The position numbers and the translations under genes are program-made. From Candidatus Gastranaerophilales bacterium (GTDB taxonomy: Bacteria > Cyanobacteriota > Vampirovibrionia > Gastranaerophilales > Gastranaerophilaceae), in the NCBI GenBank assembly GCA_944323285.1, contig CALURV010000010.1:1-64000 (forward strand): DNA of 64,000 nt, read 5' to 3'. The notes below the pieces were generated by a model, which worked only from the letters and a program-made list of their open reading frames with translations, did no database searches and was not told the DNA's origin. This document shows, one piece after another, positions 8,868 through 42,159 of this stretch; within the stretch, counting starts at the first letter, position 1, and each line of letters begins with the position of its first letter.

Positions 8868-10307
8868 TTATTTCTGGATTTTATATGCTAAATCAGGGTT
8901 CCTTGCAGCTAAAGTTTCATCAACCTTTTTAACTGGTGTTGTTAATGGATGAGTTAAAACTTTTTCAGGATTTGTATTAACTTCATTAGCAATTTGTATC
9001 ATAGTATTAATAAAGTCATCCAGTCTTTGTTTTGTTTCTGACTCAGTTGGTTCAATCATAATAGCTTCATGTACAATTAAAGGAAAATAAATAGTTGGAG
9101 GATGAAAGTTTGAATCCATTAATCTTTTTGCAATTGCTAATGTATTTACACCTTTTTCTTTTTGCCAATTTCCTGATAATACAAATTCGTGCATGCACTT
9201 TGTATTATATGGTAGAAGATAATAATCTTTTAATTTATGCATAATATAATTTGCATTTAAAACAGCATTAGAACTTACATCTTTTAAATTTTGTCCTGTC
9301 AATAAAATATAAGCATAGGCTTTAACAAGAACAGAAAAATTACCATAAAATGCTTTCATCTTTCCTATTGAATGTTTAACATTGTATTCTCGGTAATATT
9401 TATTACCGTCAAATTTAATAATAGGAACAGGCAGGAAGTCTTTTAATTTTTCAACCACTCCAACGGGACCAGCACCTGGACCTCCGCCTCCATGCGGAGT
9501 TGAAAATGTTTTGTGTAAATTCAAATGCACAATATCAAATCCCATTAGTTTGGGATTTGTATATCCCATAATGGCATTCATATTTGCTCCGTCATAATAC
9601 AACAATCCGCCAGCTTCATGAACTAATTTCGATATTTCAAGAATATTTTCTTCAAATAGACCTAAAGTATTTGGGTTTGTTAACATTATTGCCGCAGTAT
9701 TTTCATCCAATACTGTTTTTAATGCTTCAATATCAACAAGTCCTTTTTCATTAGATTTAATTTCAACAATATTAAACCCGCACATAGCTGCACTGGCAGG
9801 ATTTGTACCGTGAGCCGAATCTGGAATAATAACATTTTTCCTGTTTTCGCCTATTGTTTCAAAGTACTTTTTTACTATCATCATTCCGCATAATTCGCCA
9901 TGAGCGCCTGCTGCAGGCTGCAGGGTTATTGCATCCATTCCTGTAATAACTTTTAGACTTTCTTGCAATTTATACATTAATTTTAATGAACCTTGAGCAT
10001 CTTCATCATCTTGTTTTGGATGTAAATCGGTAAATCCTTCTAATGCGGCTAACACTTCATTGATTTTAGGATTATATTTCATTGTGCAAGAGCCTAAAGG
10101 ATAAAAACCTTTTTCTATGCAAAAATTTTTATCAGACAACTCTTTAAAATGTCTCATTACTTCAAGTTCTGAAATATCGGGTATGATTGATGATGTATTT
10201 TTAGATATAAATTTTTCATTTATAAAACTAAAATCTATTTTTTCATCAGTTAATTTTATGCCTTCTGTATTTTCTACGTTCTTCTTAAAAATTAATTCAG
10301 TCATCAT
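8868..10307 (-). CDS. gcvPB: Glycine dehydrogenase (decarboxylating) subunit 2 (P-protein beta half)
   Basis: 479 aa, the PLP-binding half of the split P-protein of the glycine cleavage system. It decarboxylates glycine and passes the aminomethyl group to lipoylated H-protein. The PLP lysine is K266 in LHKTFSTPHGGGG. Other family motifs are EKGFYPLGSCTMKYNP, LQPAAGAHGE and PDSAHGTNPASA. AGGGG before the tandem ATGATG fits the second ATG (10304) slightly better than the first. The partner gcvPA and the T and H proteins are not in the window, so the complex must be encoded elsewhere or be incomplete. It lies 13 nt downstream of the KDPG-aldolase-like gene. Confidence 0.95.
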   Translation of the reverse strand: MMTELIFKKNVENTEGIKLTDEKIDFSFINEKFISKNTSSIIPDISELEVMRHFKELSDKNFCIEKGFYPLGSCTMKYNPKINEVLAALEGFTDLHPKQDDEDAQGSLKLMYKLQESLKVITGMDAITLQPAAGAHGELCGMMIVKKYFETIGENRKNVIIPDSAHGTNPASAAMCGFNIVEIKSNEKGLVDIEALKTVLDENTAAIMLTNPNTLGLFEENILEISKLVHEAGGLLYYDGANMNAIMGYTNPKLMGFDIVHLNLHKTFSTPHGGGGPGAGPVGVVEKLKDFLPVPIIKFDGNKYYREYNVKHSIGKMKAFYGNFSVLVKAYAYILLTGQNLKDVSSNAVLNANYIMHKLKDYYLLPYNTKCMHEFVLSGNWQKEKGVNTLAIAKRLMDSNFHPPTIYFPLIVHEAIMIEPTESETKQRLDDFINTMIQIANEVNTNPEKVLTHPLTTPVKKVDETLAARNPDLAYKIQK

Positions 10308-11850: not shown

Positions 11851-13176
11851 CTAATTCAATCTCTCAGGAATTATATCATTTTCACATAATTGTTCATATG
11901 TTTGCCTATTTATTATGATATCAGATTTTCCGTTATTTACAAGTACTGCTGCAGGCTTTAATACTCTGTTATAATTGCTGGACATTGAATATCCGTATGC
12001 ACCTGTATCATAAAAACATATTATGTCACCTTCTTCAATTATAGGTAAATTAACGTCTTTTGCTAAAATATCACCCGATTCGCAGAATCTGCCGGCAATA
12101 GTTACAATTTCTTTTTCTTCTTCTTTAGGTTTATTTGCCACTTCAACTGTATATTTTGCTTGATATAAACTTGGTCTTGCATTATCAGCCATTCCGCCAT
12201 CTACTGCTTGATATCTTCTGCCATTTGGCACTTGTTTTGAACTACCTGCTGTATATATTGTTACACCTGCTGTTCCTACAATGCTTCTTCCCGGCTCTAT
12301 AAATAAATATGGTTCTTCTACATTATATTTTTTAGAATGTTCTTCAATTGATTCTATAATTGTTTCTGCTATCTCATATATTGATATTGGTTTATCATTT
12401 TCTGTATACTTAATTCCAAGTCCGCCACCTAAGTTAATTTCAGATAGTGTTATATTATGTTTATCTTTTATTCTTTTTATTTCTTTGAATATTACATCAA
12501 CTTCATCATAAAATACTTTTTTCTCAAATATTTGTGAGCCTATATGTGCATGTAATCCAATTAATTGCAAATTAGTATATTCTTCTTTTATAAGTTCTAT
12601 TGCATTATCAACTTGTGTTAAATCAAATCCGAATTTTGAGTCTAAATGCCCTGTTTGAATGTATTCATGCGTATGACATTCGATGCCGGGAGTTATTCTT
12701 AAAAGAATTCTTACTGTTTTATTTTGTGATTTTGCTATATTATCTAAAATTGCAAGTTCAAAGAAATTATCAACAGATATTGTTCCTATTCCATAATCTA
12801 AAGCCATACATAATTCTTCATAAGTTTTATTGTTGCCATTAAAGAGAGTTTTTTTCATGTCAAAATCGGCTGATTTTGCTGTATATATTTCACCGCCTGA
12901 ACATAAATCAAGACCAAAACCCTCTTCCTGCATTATTTTACATATCGCTTTTGTCATAAATGCTTTTGATGCAAACATCATCTTCATCTTTGGATATGCT
13001 TTAAAGGCATCTTTATATGATTTTGTAATAGCTCTTATTGTTTCTTCGTCAAATACATATAATGGGGTGGAATATTCATTGGCAAGTTCTACTAAATCAC
13101 ATCCGCCTATTTCTATATTGCCTTTCTCATTAATTTTTGTTGTAATTGGTTTTATGTCTTGATTTGCTGTTTTCAT
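11851..13176 (-). CDS. lysA: Diaminopimelate decarboxylase
   Basis: 441 aa PLP enzyme converting meso-diaminopimelate to lysine. Alanine-racemase-like barrel with PLP lysine K71 (MMFASKAF). Also present: HAHIGSQIFE, the glycine loop GGGLGIKY, EPGRSIVG, CESGD (active-site Cys of the partner subunit) and GAYGYSMSSNYN. AAGGAGAG precedes the ATG. It heads the long minus-strand run; a copy of the dispersed repeat lies directly upstream. dapB, earlier in the pathway, is at 23439. Confidence 0.96.
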   Translation of the reverse strand: MKTANQDIKPITTKINEKGNIEIGGCDLVELANEYSTPLYVFDEETIRAITKSYKDAFKAYPKMKMMFASKAFMTKAICKIMQEEGFGLDLCSGGEIYTAKSADFDMKKTLFNGNNKTYEELCMALDYGIGTISVDNFFELAILDNIAKSQNKTVRILLRITPGIECHTHEYIQTGHLDSKFGFDLTQVDNAIELIKEEYTNLQLIGLHAHIGSQIFEKKVFYDEVDVIFKEIKRIKDKHNITLSEINLGGGLGIKYTENDKPISIYEIAETIIESIEEHSKKYNVEEPYLFIEPGRSIVGTAGVTIYTAGSSKQVPNGRRYQAVDGGMADNARPSLYQAKYTVEVANKPKEEEKEIVTIAGRFCESGDILAKDVNLPIIEEGDIICFYDTGAYGYSMSSNYNRVLKPAAVLVNNGKSDIIINRQTYEQLCENDIIPERLN

Positions 13177-13198
13177 TCTCTCTCCTTAATACTTTTTA

Positions 13199-13321
13199 TT
13201 TAATCTAGTATCGCACTTTGTTACCGAGTCATCCTCGCTAACAAAGAACTCACCTTTTAAAAACGCTACTCGAACAACTTCACTCACACTTTCAGCTTAT
13301 CGTGAATTTTTTCTCGGACAT
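13199..13321 (-). repeat. Dispersed intergenic element, copy B (near full length, minus orientation)
   Basis: About 120 bp, nearly identical after reverse complementing to 41942-42066. In the element's own orientation it starts TGTCCGAGAAAAAATTCACG and ends GATACTAGATTAAATA. It contains a hairpin with arms ACTTTGTTA/TAACAAAGT-like (plus-strand 13215-13245 region), here extended by CGAG/CTCG pairing. It fills the divergent gap between lysA and the gene at 13385. No open reading frame or terminal inverted repeats are apparent. Confidence 0.85.
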
Positions 13322-13384: not shown

Positions 13385-13942
13385 ATGAAGAAGAAAATAT
13401 TAATACTGCTTGCTTTCTTATTTTTCGGATTTTCAGTATTCGCAGAAAATTGGGATTCTTTATATGATGCTGCTGAACCTTTTCAATCTAAATTGTATAA
13501 TGATATAGATCCTTATCAAGATGAAGATACAATTAGATATTCTTGGTCGCCTTATCCTTTATTTAGAACTTCTGCTGATTTGTATTTTAAAGATATTAAA
13601 ATTGAACCCGGATATTATTTATTAACCCCTAGAACTCTTGGTGGTAAAGATTACGTTTTGTTCAAGCAAAACGGAAAAGTTCAGTTTATAATACCAGTTG
13701 CTAAAAAAGAAGCTACTCCGCTTAATTTCTATAATGCCAATACCCCCCAAGTAAAAAAAACAAAATGGCAAAAATTTACACAATCCGTTAGAAAAAAATT
13801 CTATGATACTGCAAAAGATTCAGGACGTTCAACTCCGCCAAGCTCGCTTGTTGATATTTCTGTTGAAGTTAAATATATTATTATGAATTTCTATTATGGT
13901 GAATATAAATATGTTGTTCTCTTTAAAAGGAGTCCTTATTGA
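13385..13942 (+). CDS. Exported protein of unknown function, 185 aa
   Basis: Not recognised. A clear signal peptide (KKKILILLAFLFFGFSVFA) with likely cleavage before ENWDS sends it across the inner membrane. The mature part is rich in aromatic residues (WSPYPLFRTSADLYF, GYYLLTPRTLGG, IIMNFYYGEYKYVVLF), suggesting a beta-rich periplasmic or outer-membrane-associated fold. A basic linker lies near residues 125-145. A -10 box stands right before the ATG without a ribosome binding site. It overlaps the convergent zinc-ribbon gene by 7 bp. Confidence 0.7.
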   Translation: MKKKILILLAFLFFGFSVFAENWDSLYDAAEPFQSKLYNDIDPYQDEDTIRYSWSPYPLFRTSADLYFKDIKIEPGYYLLTPRTLGGKDYVLFKQNGKVQFIIPVAKKEATPLNFYNANTPQVKKTKWQKFTQSVRKKFYDTAKDSGRSTPPSSLVDISVEVKYIIMNFYYGEYKYVVLFKRSPY

Positions 13943-31157: not shown

Positions 31158-31293
31158 CTTACCCTCATGCTTTAATAATTTACTTATTTGCCTTAAATTA
31201 TTTATTCCCATATTTAAAATTAAATAAACAATCACTCTTAATATTATTAATGATAATAAATATTAATTTTTTCGATTTGAGTTAAAAAAGATA

Positions 31294-31349
31294 GATACTT
31301 TGTTATCCCAAATGGCTCTCAAACAAAGTGTGATACTAGATTAAATATA
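31294..31349 (+). repeat. Dispersed intergenic element, copy C (3' remnant)
   Basis: Matches only the last ~55 bp of the element seen at 41942-42066. It has the hairpin arms ACTTTGTT/AACAAAGT (31297-31304 and 31322-31329), a different loop, and the end GATACTAGATTAAATATA. The first half of the element is absent or too diverged to see. It lies between two paralogous small genes. Confidence 0.7.
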
Positions 31350-37736: not shown

Positions 37737-40700
37737 GTGGAAATTCATAATAAAATAAATTCTTCAAATATTAATATATTTAAGGAAAATCAAAAGAAAA
37801 TAACTAAAAATACAAGTATTACATTTAACGGTAATGCTACTATTGGTAGTTCGTCAAAGGCTATAGAGAGTATTGCTAAAGCTAAAATTGCTTTGGATAA
37901 TGCTTATACTAAGCCCATACCTTATGAAGAAAAAATAAAAATATTAAGAGATAAGAATGTAGAAGAAAAATATTTTGAACTCTTTTTATCGCAGGACGAT
38001 GATGAATTTAAAAAAATGTTAAAATACCTTGATTCTGGTATAACTCTTGAACAAATTAAGTCTATTTATAACCCGTTTTGGGGAAGTGAATATGCAAGAC
38101 AAGCTGCTGAATTATCCGAATTTAATATTCCTTTTGATTTTGCCAGAGACTTATATTCTTTTTACAAAGTGCCTCAAGAAAAAATTGAATTTTTAAAACA
38201 AGCAAAATTTGATTTTTCTAATGAAAATAAAAATTTTAAAATTGATAAATATAGATTAAAAGATATTTTATGTAATGAAGATTTTTTTAAAAAATTTAAT
38301 TCAGTTTTTCAAAAAAGGGTAGATGCTAATGTAGCTCTTGCTGCTTTAAACTTGAATGATGATGATTATCAAAAACTACTAAGCAAACTCGATTCGGATA
38401 ATACTGTAAATAATTCTGCAACTAGTGCATATTTTATATATCAATTTACAGATGATGATATAAATACGATTATAGAAGCATCAAAAGAAAATAAACTAGA
38501 TTTTAATAATTATGATTTTTGGATAAATTCTTCTCGTAGTAGAGGAATTAAAAATACAGCAGAACTTTTACGAGCAGGAGTTCCCATTGATTGTTTAGAA
38601 AAAGATGTTTATTTGAATGATGAACAAATAATAGAAGCAATTTCTTCAGCAAAAAAATACAATATTGCTGCTTCTGATGCTATTTTTGCGTATCAATTTG
38701 CAAATGATGATGAACAAAAGAGAAATAGAATTTTTGAGCTTATAAAAGAAAAAGGTTTGGATTGTAATTATGCTTGTAGATTAGCAGGATATGATAATAA
38801 TGTTGTAGATTCTACAATTTCTTATATGGAAAGAGGTATTGATTTTAATAATTCATTAAACCTTGCTTTATTAAAGAAGGATGATACTTACAAGGAACGA
38901 GTTATTGAATTGTTAGATGTTTTAAAGAATGTATGTGACGCACAAACTTTTTTAAATATGAACTTATCAGAAGAAGATAGTGCAAAAGCTTTAGATTTGT
39001 TAAAAAAAGGAGCAAATCTTTATTTTGTAAGTTTTTGCATGCAATCGCCTGCAGTATATGAAAAAGCTTGTTCTTTATATGATTCTGGTGTTTGTGACTC
39101 ATTGGATGGTTTATATGGTGGAATTAATGAAGAAGAAGTATTAACAGAGCTTGAATATATTGCACGTGGAGTGCCTAAGGAAAAAGTATCTCAGTTTTTA
39201 TCTGCTGCAACTCCGGAACAAATAGATTTGTTGAATAGTGGCGTTATGTATGAGGCTCTTGCACCTTTAAAAGAGTATGAAGGAAAATGCCATGATTGTA
39301 CATTTATTAAAGAATATCTAAAAAAGGGTATTTCTTTTGATTTGGCATTAAATCTTAAAAAGAGAGTGGATTTAGAAAAAATTCCAAATGGAATTGTTCT
39401 TGATAATGTATATAAATCATTAAATGAAGATAAAATTATTGCTTTATCAAAAATACAAATGCAAAGAGGAAAGGATTGGATAACTGGGAAAGACAAAGAT
39501 ATTTTGATTGAATTTATAAGTTTAATTAAAGATTTAGGAAATTTAGTTGAGCTTATTGATTTGGGATTTATAAATGAAAAAGCATTATTAAATTATAATG
39601 AATTTGTAAAAAGAGGAATTCCATATAGTCAATCTAATAATGCAATAATATTATCACAATTGGAATTCCAAAATTCTGCCCAGTTTGATAGAGCAACTGA
39701 ATTATTAAAAAGGGGAGTTCCTTTTGAAAAAATACTGTTTGCAATTAATGATGACAAATCATTTATGGAAGCTATTAATAGCTTAAAAAATGATGAAAAA
39801 AAATATAATAATTTTACCTTAAATTCTAATATTCTTAAATTATATAAGAATGGTTTAAACAAGGATGATATTAATTTTATAGTAAAAAATTGTGATTTTT
39901 ATAATCAAGAAGATTTTGATAATTTATTAAAATATATTAATAAAGGACATTCTATTCAAGATGCAGTTAAAATTTCAGGATATTGTGTCTATATGAAGAA
40001 TTCTTATACTGAAATAAATATAGAAAAAACATTACAGGATCGAGAATTTATATCTGACATGATTTTAAAGGGATGTAAAATTGATTCTTTATTTATGATA
40101 GTTTCAGATGATAAAAAATTACAAAGATTACATGAACTTTTAGCCAAAGGTTATGAGCCAAAATTGGCAGAAAAAATTGTATCTTGTAATATATCTCCAA
40201 CAGATGACAAAAAAATAACCAAAATAAAAGAATTTCAAAATACTAAATTAAATGAAACTATAAAAAAAATGTGTACAAATACAAATTTGTATCCTTTTAT
40301 TGATGAATTGTATTCTTTTGAAAATTATATAGGTTATCAATATGCGAATATAATAAATTCGAACATTTCATTACAGGATATTTTAAATAGTGCAATAGCA
40401 TTTGTTAAATCACCCTTAAAACAAGCCATGAAAAGACCTAATATGTATTTAAGCGGGATTCCTATTGAAGATACTGAAAAAGTAAATGGGAAATATCCAA
40501 AATTATCAGAAAAAAAGATGCAAGAATATCGAACTAGGTTGTTAATGTTTTTTAAATCGCATATGGTTGAAATAACTAGAGCACTTAAATATCTTGATGT
40601 TGATACTTTTAATCAGCTTATGGATAAAAGAACAATAAATTTCTCAGAACAACTCGAGCAGTTAAATAAGATGGATAACAAGCATTATGAACTTGTATCA

Positions 40701-41939
40701 AAAATTACTAAATGTCTCAATGAAGATGGTAAACCATTGAGCTCAAAAGAAAAAATTGATTTGGCAAAAATAATTCTTTATCATCAATTGGGATATATTG
40801 ATATAGCTTACATTGAAGAATTTATTAAATCAGGAATTGTTAATATTTCTCAATTTCGTAAAACTCTTTTCAATAAATTAATTGATTCAATAGGCTTGTC
40901 TCAAGAAGAGGTGCAAGCACATACAGATAAATTGAATTTTGATAATGAATATGTTTTTCTTTTATTAAGAACTCAAAATAGTGCAGATTTTATGATTATA
41001 AAAGATGCTTTACAAGATAAAAAAACATTAGAATCAACAATAACAACGCTTAAGGAATTATTATCTGCCCCTGAAGAGCTTGCACATAATGGTCTTACTG
41101 AAGAAAAAACAGTTGCATTGATAGATTTACTAAATCGTGCCAGTGAAATGGAGGAGAAAGATATTTATAAGGAATTTTCTAAAATTTCTCCTTTTGCATT
41201 AGTTAGTTTAACAGCACAAGATATTGCCAAAATAGCTATTTTGAATGATTTTAATAGTTATATTCAGGATGTTTCAAATCCAATTGGAAAAATTAATGCA
41301 GAAACGAAAGCACAATTTGAAGAATTGGGACTTAATTATAATAGCTGGTTGAATTTTGTGGAGGAGGATTCAATAGTATTTAATGGACAAAGTTATGGAC
41401 TTAAATTATGGGATAGAAATCCGCAAAAAGATTTGTTTATGGGAAACAGAACTTCTTGTTGTACAGCTATAATAGAAGGAGGTAATGGTAAAGCAACTCC
41501 AATATATCTGGCTAATACTGCTTTTAACGTAATTGAGCTTACCGATGAAAATGGAAATATTGTTGCAATGTCAAGAATTTTTGTAGCTATTGTTGATAAT
41601 AAACCGTCTATTATTGTTGAAAATATTGAAATAAATAATTCGTTTTTAAAGAATAAAACGCCGGAAGAATTAAAATTATTAAGAGATAAAATGTTTGAAT
41701 ATGTAGAGAATTTTTCAAAAGAACTTTCAAACGGAAAGAAAATGGATATATATTTCTCTAAAAATTATACGTATGTTCCTATTTCTAATTATAAATTAGT
41801 TCAAAAAAATATAGATTTTGTAGGTTCTATATCTTCTGATAATATATATTTAAATTGCAAACCCGGATGGGTAAATACGAAAGAATTAAAGAACCAACCT
41901 TGTGAATTATATTTAATTTCACAAGATGAGAATACATAA
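37737..41939 (+). CDS. Giant alpha-solenoid protein with unassigned C-terminal domain
   Basis: 1400 aa, not recognised. GTG start supported by TAAGG 5 nt upstream. No signal peptide; the N-terminal ~35 residues are N/K-rich with ITFNGN. Residues ~90-1050 hold at least a dozen degenerate helical repeats with the signature [LYF][LIV]x+G[IV]xxxxA. Examples are AELLRAGVPID, ISYMERGIDFN, DLLKKGANLY, EYLKKGISFD, EFVKRGIPYS, ELLKRGVPFE and ELLAKGYEPK. Spacing is uneven. The last ~230 residues form a different domain with WDRNPQKDLFMGNRTSCC (Cys 1241-1242) and ELTDENGNIVAMSRIFV, which looks enzymatic or binding but unassigned. A repeat copy and a terminator follow. Confidence 0.8.
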   Translation: MEIHNKINSSNINIFKENQKKITKNTSITFNGNATIGSSSKAIESIAKAKIALDNAYTKPIPYEEKIKILRDKNVEEKYFELFLSQDDDEFKKMLKYLDSGITLEQIKSIYNPFWGSEYARQAAELSEFNIPFDFARDLYSFYKVPQEKIEFLKQAKFDFSNENKNFKIDKYRLKDILCNEDFFKKFNSVFQKRVDANVALAALNLNDDDYQKLLSKLDSDNTVNNSATSAYFIYQFTDDDINTIIEASKENKLDFNNYDFWINSSRSRGIKNTAELLRAGVPIDCLEKDVYLNDEQIIEAISSAKKYNIAASDAIFAYQFANDDEQKRNRIFELIKEKGLDCNYACRLAGYDNNVVDSTISYMERGIDFNNSLNLALLKKDDTYKERVIELLDVLKNVCDAQTFLNMNLSEEDSAKALDLLKKGANLYFVSFCMQSPAVYEKACSLYDSGVCDSLDGLYGGINEEEVLTELEYIARGVPKEKVSQFLSAATPEQIDLLNSGVMYEALAPLKEYEGKCHDCTFIKEYLKKGISFDLALNLKKRVDLEKIPNGIVLDNVYKSLNEDKIIALSKIQMQRGKDWITGKDKDILIEFISLIKDLGNLVELIDLGFINEKALLNYNEFVKRGIPYSQSNNAIILSQLEFQNSAQFDRATELLKRGVPFEKILFAINDDKSFMEAINSLKNDEKKYNNFTLNSNILKLYKNGLNKDDINFIVKNCDFYNQEDFDNLLKYINKGHSIQDAVKISGYCVYMKNSYTEINIEKTLQDREFISDMILKGCKIDSLFMIVSDDKKLQRLHELLAKGYEPKLAEKIVSCNISPTDDKKITKIKEFQNTKLNETIKKMCTNTNLYPFIDELYSFENYIGYQYANIINSNISLQDILNSAIAFVKSPLKQAMKRPNMYLSGIPIEDTEKVNGKYPKLSEKKMQEYRTRLLMFFKSHMVEITRALKYLDVDTFNQLMDKRTINFSEQLEQLNKMDNKHYELVSKITKCLNEDGKPLSSKEKIDLAKIILYHQLGYIDIAYIEEFIKSGIVNISQFRKTLFNKLIDSIGLSQEEVQAHTDKLNFDNEYVFLLLRTQNSADFMIIKDALQDKKTLESTITTLKELLSAPEELAHNGLTEEKTVALIDLLNRASEMEEKDIYKEFSKISPFALVSLTAQDIAKIAILNDFNSYIQDVSNPIGKINAETKAQFEELGLNYNSWLNFVEEDSIVFNGQSYGLKLWDRNPQKDLFMGNRTSCCTAIIEGGNGKATPIYLANTAFNVIELTDENGNIVAMSRIFVAIVDNKPSIIVENIEINNSFLKNKTPEELKLLRDKMFEYVENFSKELSNGKKMDIYFSKNYTYVPISNYKLVQKNIDFVGSISSDNIYLNCKPGWVNTKELKNQPCELYLISQDENT

Positions 41940-41941
41940 TT

Positions 41942-42066
41942 TTGTCCGAGAAAAAATTCACGATAAGCTGAAAGTGTGAGTGAATTTTATTAAGTGGCGT
42001 TTTTAAAAGGTGAGTACTTTGTTAGCGAGGATGAGAAGGTAACAAAGTGCGATACTAGATTAAATA
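41942..42066 (+). repeat. Dispersed intergenic element, copy A (full length)
   Basis: Begins TGTCCGAGAAAAAATTCACG four bases after the stop of the 1400-aa gene and ends GATACTAGATTAAATATA. It matches the reverse complement of 13199-13321 along ~120 bp except for a divergent patch in the middle (TTTTATTAAGTGG here) and the hairpin loop. Inverted repeats: AATTCAC/GTGAATT and ACTTTGTTA/TAACAAAGT. No coding capacity is evident. Confidence 0.85.
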
Positions 42067-42117: not shown

Positions 42118-42132
42118 GTAAGAAGGTATGGG

Positions 42133-42159
42133 GTAGGACAAAGAAGTCCTACTTTTTTT
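42133..42159 (+). terminator. Rho-independent terminator
   Basis: GTAGGAC (42133-42139), a 6-nt loop, GTCCTAC (42146-42152), then seven T. It ends transcription coming from the 1400-aa gene and copy A of the repeat. Confidence 0.85.

Follow-up and report, generated by a model that had tools for sequence, protein, structure and literature searches.

Three dispersed intergenic sequences in the window (the whole stretch of 64,000 nucleotides that was analysed) belong to a large family of folded elements which, judged from the comparison of closely related genomes, is mobile and not a remnant. It is an orphan element, as it works like the ends of a single-strand mobile element and the enzymes tested for were not found in the two genomes richest in copies. 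We consider it probable that this is a non-autonomous single-strand-mobile element, with ends like those of IS200/IS605 or REP/RAYT systems and its enzyme supplied in trans.

Copies in the window and extent of the family

All three places named in the initial annotation hold the element as described there, with sharpened bounds as two full-length copies and one right-hand fragment (Table 1). Copy A starts 3 nt past the stop codon of an open reading frame (37737-41939; 1400 aa, GTG start) that has no Pfam match and whose terminator-like hairpin (42130-42155) lies downstream of the copy. A terminator scan placed a terminator beyond the element at this site and none inside it, so that an intrinsic terminator was ruled out. 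Copy B is flanked by an ORF on the + strand (13385-13942) and by a gene on the - strand (11851-13176) for a PLP-dependent decarboxylase of the diaminopimelate/ornithine/arginine decarboxylase family; its end is 21 nt upstream of the decarboxylase start codon, directly before the ribosome-binding site.

Table 1. Element copies in the window and the parts of copy A
Feature	Position	Strand	Basis or remark
Copy A, full-length short form, 123 nt, TGTCCGAG...GATTAAAT	41943..42065	+	sequence, BLAST, covariance model
Copy B, full-length short form	13198..13320	-	sequence, BLAST, relative's empty site
Copy C, 5'-truncated or decayed; right module (hairpin 3) and tail GATACTAGATTAAAT only	about 31271..31346	+	
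Copy A, basal stem P1, 5' side TGTCC	41943..41947	+	pairs with 41994 and 41996-41999 (G.GGCG); sequence-conserved, with wobble
Copy A, hairpin 1, AAAATTCAC ... GTGAATTTT	41953..41988	+	double changes in 6 of 11 pairs across species
Copy A, linker between modules, TTTTTAAAA	42000..42008	+	consensus NNTTNAAAA
Copy A, right module	42009..42056	+	basal stem P3 GGTG / TACT, 42009-42012 with 42053-42056
Copy A, hairpin 3 arms, ACTTTGTTA / TAACAAAGT	42016-42024 / 42040-42048	+	
Copy A, unpaired conserved 3' tail, AGATTAAAT	42057..42065	+	

The genome that holds the window (G000) belongs to a gut bacterium, a non-photosynthetic relative of cyanobacteria, and is a metagenome-assembled genome (MAG) of the order Gastranaerophilales with 1.86 Mb in 36 contigs, 97% complete. 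BLAST returned 40 near-full-length matches in it besides the query (E down to 1e-54). The 3' tail GATACTAGATTAAATA, with at most one mismatch, occurs 77 times as against 0 for a reversed-pattern control, a few of these matches falling within coding sequence without an element, and a stricter search for hairpin plus tail gave 84 distinct copies. A covariance model raised this to at least 86, a lower bound since 86 candidates were scored. The match among the window copies is not due to chance, and the search for further copies proposed in the initial annotation thus returned at least 84 of them. Copies come in two size classes, a short form of ~123 nt and a long form of ~185 nt in which an insert is placed between hairpin 1 and the GAGTGGC strand. 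They are intergenic, with a typical distance of 10-25 nt from the preceding stop codon and of 80-110 nt from a start codon, and are found on either strand relative to the neighbouring genes.

Of 41 genomes of the genus, 36 carry the element by covariance model, and the number per carrier runs from 1 to at least 87; by species, copy number ranges from 0-2 up to at least 87. Weaker covariance-model matches extend to other genera of the family and to other families of the order, and almost every named record with the core motif is a 'Candidatus Gastranaerophilales' MAG. Phage, plasmid and IMG/VR records gave no match, which rules out a phage, plasmid or viral origin, and together with the Rfam result below this speaks against the match being part of a known tRNA, IS or attachment-site sequence. 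A literature search on repeats in Gastranaerophilales/Melainabacteria showed no relevant work among the titles listed.

A two-module fold and the strand that adopts it

The consensus fold, based on an alignment of 36 diverse copies, comprises a left module in which the basal stem P1 (TGTCC/G.GGCA) encloses hairpin 1, and a right module in which the basal stem P3 (GGTG/YACT) encloses hairpin 3 and is followed by the unpaired tail. With this fold 96.9% of cells are paired and 16 of 32 base pairs have changed on both sides across species (10 double-changed pairs in the hairpin-3 stems), which answers positively the question of covariation raised at the outset. The covariation score was 0.396, compared with 0.189 for shuffled alignments (0 of 500 reached the observed value) and 0.049-0.095 for slid ones; kinship among the sequences inflates counts of this sort, but the margin is wide and the slid controls point the same way. 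Double changes are confined to the hairpins, and the basal stems are conserved in sequence, without covariation support. The foot sequences are GTGAG at hairpin 3 and CCGAG or CCGAA at hairpin 1, and GTGG precedes an alternative, weak linker hairpin.

The differences that had been noticed between copies can be placed on this fold. The '~15-base central patch' corresponds to the variable linker that joins the two folded modules. The tip of hairpin 3 is inverted in 15 copies and normal in 90, and that of hairpin 1 is inverted in 6 and normal in 95; because loops occur in both orientations the stem arms stay constant while the loop differs, and the sequence of the tip matters little. Selection on structure, suggested from the kept arms and differing loops of three copies, is borne out. 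Several species have extra modules of ~55 to 100 nt in the hairpin loops, sometimes nested, and as such loop-inserted versions occur in many copies, the loops are dispensable for spread. Separate repeat modules lie in hairpin tips or junctions of other species, sometimes one within another (L134:2096-2394, L159, L147, L203), namely TACAAAGCGAA...GAGCCTGTAT of ~55 nt and GCGAAATTTCGGACGG...AATTTCAAGACAG of ~101 nt.

The two ends are not always found together. Genera g19 and g27 (L305-L307, L311) retain the left module and combine it with an unrelated right module (CAGCG...GTGGCGGAGAACTGCTTT, ending GGCGGAGAACTGCTTTT), and the converse, the usual right module joined to other left parts, is seen in some other families of the order. 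On sequence comparison the end modules evidently exchange partners between genera. One genome, G091, has several identical copies of the form with the left module and the other right module, which suggests recent activity. A further arrangement, back-to-back right ends without a left module, was seen at G000:C24:211644-211712 (L048), where they form a near-perfect palindrome GATACTAGATTAAAT...hairpin...ATTTAATCTAGTATC.

The substitutions in the stems indicate which strand folds. Among 53 short copies from the genome of the window and a close relative, 17 stem changes that form G.T were seen as against 17 expected from unpaired sites, and 3 that form A.C as against 37 expected (p about 1e-6, a value that assumes independent copies, although they are only partly so). 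The hairpin stems show the same across species, with 35 G.T cells and 1 A.C cell. Since G.T changes occur at the unpaired rate and A.C changes are rare, the TGTC...ATTAAAT strand is the folded strand, and this pattern indicates that it folds as a single strand, either as RNA or as ssDNA.

One explanation for this asymmetry is that the element acts at the RNA level, the folded transcript being a mobile intermediate that is reverse-spliced or reverse-transcribed at the fork, or a guide or scaffold RNA for another enzyme. Tolerance of G.U but not of A.C on one strand would be expected of an RNA, and the conserved U.G/G.U pairs in basal stems P1 and P3 fit RNA at least as well as DNA. Moreover, copies often lie just past stop codons and so would be co-transcribed, and group II introns likewise insert without duplication into DNA at the fork. 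However, in ssDNA too G.T is milder than A.C, copies occur in both directions relative to the neighbouring genes, the element has no splicing-type ends, and no reverse transcriptase (PF00078) was found in G000 or G058, the genomes with most copies. A known RNA family was ruled out by Rfam searches, which gave no gathering-level match in the window and, for five loci that bear the element, no credible hit at E<=5. We regard an RNA-level element as unlikely.

Insertion sites and replication-strand bias

Flanks were compared with those of the close relative G062 (BRZ_AN__bin63; G058 shares its coordinates and is taken as the same genome), which are ~83-95% identical at most resolved sites. Both shared sites and clean orthologous empty sites were found, the latter having been proposed as a check when the repeat was first noted. 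The site of copy B is empty in the relative (L219, about 9597), and in the reverse case a copy of the relative has its empty site near position 8868 of the window. The insertion before the decarboxylase gene may therefore cause the expression of this gene to differ between genomes. Of the three natures first offered for the repeat (a REP-like element, a structured RNA or a mobile remnant), the data favour a mobile, structured element resembling REPs and IS200 ends; a remnant does not agree with insertions that differ between close relatives, nor with other species having their own homogeneous sets.

The junctions show clean insertion of TGTC...ATTAAAT without target-site duplication, with an uncertainty of 1-2 nt at some sites where the flanks are AT-rich, and the element has no ORF and no terminal inverted repeat beyond 4 bp. 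This agrees with the initial annotation, which had found no ORF, terminal inverted repeats or target duplications and had concluded that the repeat was not a typical IS and no obvious MITE. ERIC units are known with internal insertions. In its size and intergenic placement (PMC2759123), and in having a long form with an internal insertion, the element does resemble ERIC and could in principle be an ERIC-like unit or an ordinary MITE, the remnant of a transposon moved by double-strand cut and paste. This reading is hardly credible, as it is refuted, as tested here, on duplication and on terminal repeats, and the orientation of the element is biased.

In 60 of 66 copies position -4 of the left flank is A, and the flank resembles the element's own right end, with exact TTAAAT in 9.5% as against 0.2% elsewhere (z=8.4). 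Another possibility raised by such a target is a substrate of a site-specific recombinase, of the tyrosine recombinase or integron-integrase type, in which a small circle with the junction ATTAAAT/TGTC would recombine with TTAAAT-like targets. Insertion without duplication would fit this, as would the likeness between target and end, and integron attC is a known case of a folded ssDNA site. Nevertheless, the crossover homology is loose, with only the A at -4 near-fixed, and inspection by eye showed no attC consensus boxes, so that we think such a substrate distinctly improbable.

The orientation of the element on the chromosome is better accounted for by replication than by transcription. Its strand lies on the G-rich strand in 100 of 124 copies (p=3e-12; 28/33 in the genome of the window and 72/91 in G062), as called from third-position GC skew corrected for gene strand. 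In bacteria the G-rich strand is as a rule the leading strand, and by assumption from this rule it is taken here as the leading-sense (lagging-template) strand. On contig C5 of G062 the orientation of the element flips where the skew flips. Gene direction was ruled out as the cause, as the genes of these contigs are split nearly 50:50 between the strands and 17 of 24 copies follow the skew where the two conflict. In a second genus, one genome had 11 of 16 copies along the G-rich strand, a non-significant trend. Contig C1 of G062 (370 kb) has no strand bias (15/27); most copies at about 51-204 kb of it (L218-L226) oppose the replication-strand rule with the sign of the skew unchanged, and this block may be due to an old inversion or to mis-joining of the contig.

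Strand bias of this kind might also reflect function; Chi and KOPS, both polar motifs, are likewise skewed. The copies, being strand-biased, intergenic and structured, could then be a polar host element held by selection, such as a chromosome-organising, recombination or mRNA 3'-end signal. Against this, sites are not conserved between close relatives, copy numbers within one genus differ widely by species (0-2 to at least 87), the sequence sets are species-specific, and the element is not an intrinsic terminator, the terminator-like site beyond copy A being separate. We judge a host function of this sort to be very unlikely.

We propose instead that the element moves as ssDNA by way of its folded ends, and it would then consist of just two end modules, P1 with hairpin 1 on the left and P3 with hairpin 3 and the tail on the right. 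The single-stranded TGTC...ATTAAAT strand would fold into both modules, and an enzyme supplied in trans would recognise the folded ends, cut after TTAAAT-like sequences (in the left flank and at the element's own right end) and rejoin the element behind another TTAAAT-like site. Movement would take place where the replication fork exposes ssDNA, most likely on the lagging-strand template. Such a mechanism would account for the lack of target duplication and of terminal inverted repeats as well as for the orientation along replication. Mobility, boundaries, insertion without duplication, the fold, the strand-specific constraint, the strand bias and the target resemblance are shown by the data; the ssDNA intermediate and an HUH-like enzyme are the parts that we infer.

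The missing enzyme and similar known elements

Candidates for the mobilising enzyme were sought in the genomes rich in copies. Y1 transposase (PF01797) was not found in G000, G062 or the third copy-rich genome (G007/G063), and TnpB was found in 0 of 40 genomes. An IS110 DEDD transposase was absent from G000 and G058 and present in 1 of 40 genomes. The window, ~0.7 Mb of the relative and the g19 genomes showed no autonomous copy, in which an ORF would lie between the ends. RAYT-like genes occur in 11 of 39 genomes of the genus, neither linked to nor correlated with copies of the element, and none is flanked by the element in the REPtron arrangement; two such Y1 transposase genes, of about 180 aa and without flanking element, lie at L110:1357-1893 and L111:1163-1702. 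RAYT was ruled out as the mover by its absence from the copy-rich genomes G000, G062 and G007/G063 and by the lack of flanking elements. As the sequences are MAGs, the gene for the enzyme could be unassembled. Because the enzymes were not found, the element has not been filed as a member of either IS200/IS605 or REP/RAYT.

The closest likeness in form is to the ends of IS200/IS605 elements and their non-autonomous derivatives of the PATE type. IS200/IS605 elements have subterminal hairpins (PMC6006769), and their orientation is reported to follow replication in the same sense as that of the element (PMC5371812). Shared with them are a subterminal hairpin at each end, the lack of terminal inverted repeats and of target duplication, and a target like the own right end. 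Unlike these, the element lacks TnpA (Y1) and TnpB in the copy-rich genomes examined, and it has a basal stem, a 9-nt tail past the last paired base and weak target specificity; IS200/IS605 elements insert 3' of a fixed tetra- or pentanucleotide that a guide at the hairpin foot recognises, and as a possible counterpart the flanks of the element show the near-fixed A at -4 and the resemblance to TTAAAT.

With REPs and REPINs, which are thought to be mobilised in trans by a Y1 enzyme, the RAYT (TnpA_REP), the element shares many intergenic, structured copies, often behind genes, in species-specific sets. It differs in its 123-185 nt and two different modules, whereas a REP has 20-40 nt or is an inverted doublet, and no canonical GT[AG]G guide is evident at the foot of hairpins 1 and 3, where the sequences are those given above. 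CGTC-tagged REPs are likewise orphan palindromic repeats without a dedicated transposase, and their tag may read TGTC, but in their 20-40 nt they have one hairpin, which follows the tag directly, and a CCA-like tail, whereas the element has two modules and the tail AGATTAAAT (PMC3733652). We know of no replication-strand bias in ERIC. ERIC and RU-1 (127 bp) share with the element a similar length, intergenic placement, a stable fold and an unknown mover, but ERIC has terminal inverted repeats and a TA target duplication (PMC2759123) and the element neither.

It is conceivable, and we suggest it tentatively, that the family is one of an orphan class of single-strand mobile elements, as ssDNA or RNA, which is spread across the Gastranaerophilales, has exchangeable end modules and nested loop modules, and has a mover that is neither a known Y1 enzyme nor based on TnpB, IS110 or reverse transcriptase. 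How short palindromic repeats spread without a dedicated transposase is an open question, stated for the CGTC REPs (PMC3733652), and the family offers a tractable case of it: there are at least 84 copies, the empty sites in close relatives are clean, the fold covaries, the active strand is defined, and the strand bias points to the replication fork. Should the mover be a new single-strand enzyme, it may be found by comparing sister species rich in copies with those that have none. For annotators, the implication is that mobile DNA accounts for many of the intergenic 'conserved RNAs' of gut Gastranaerophilales.
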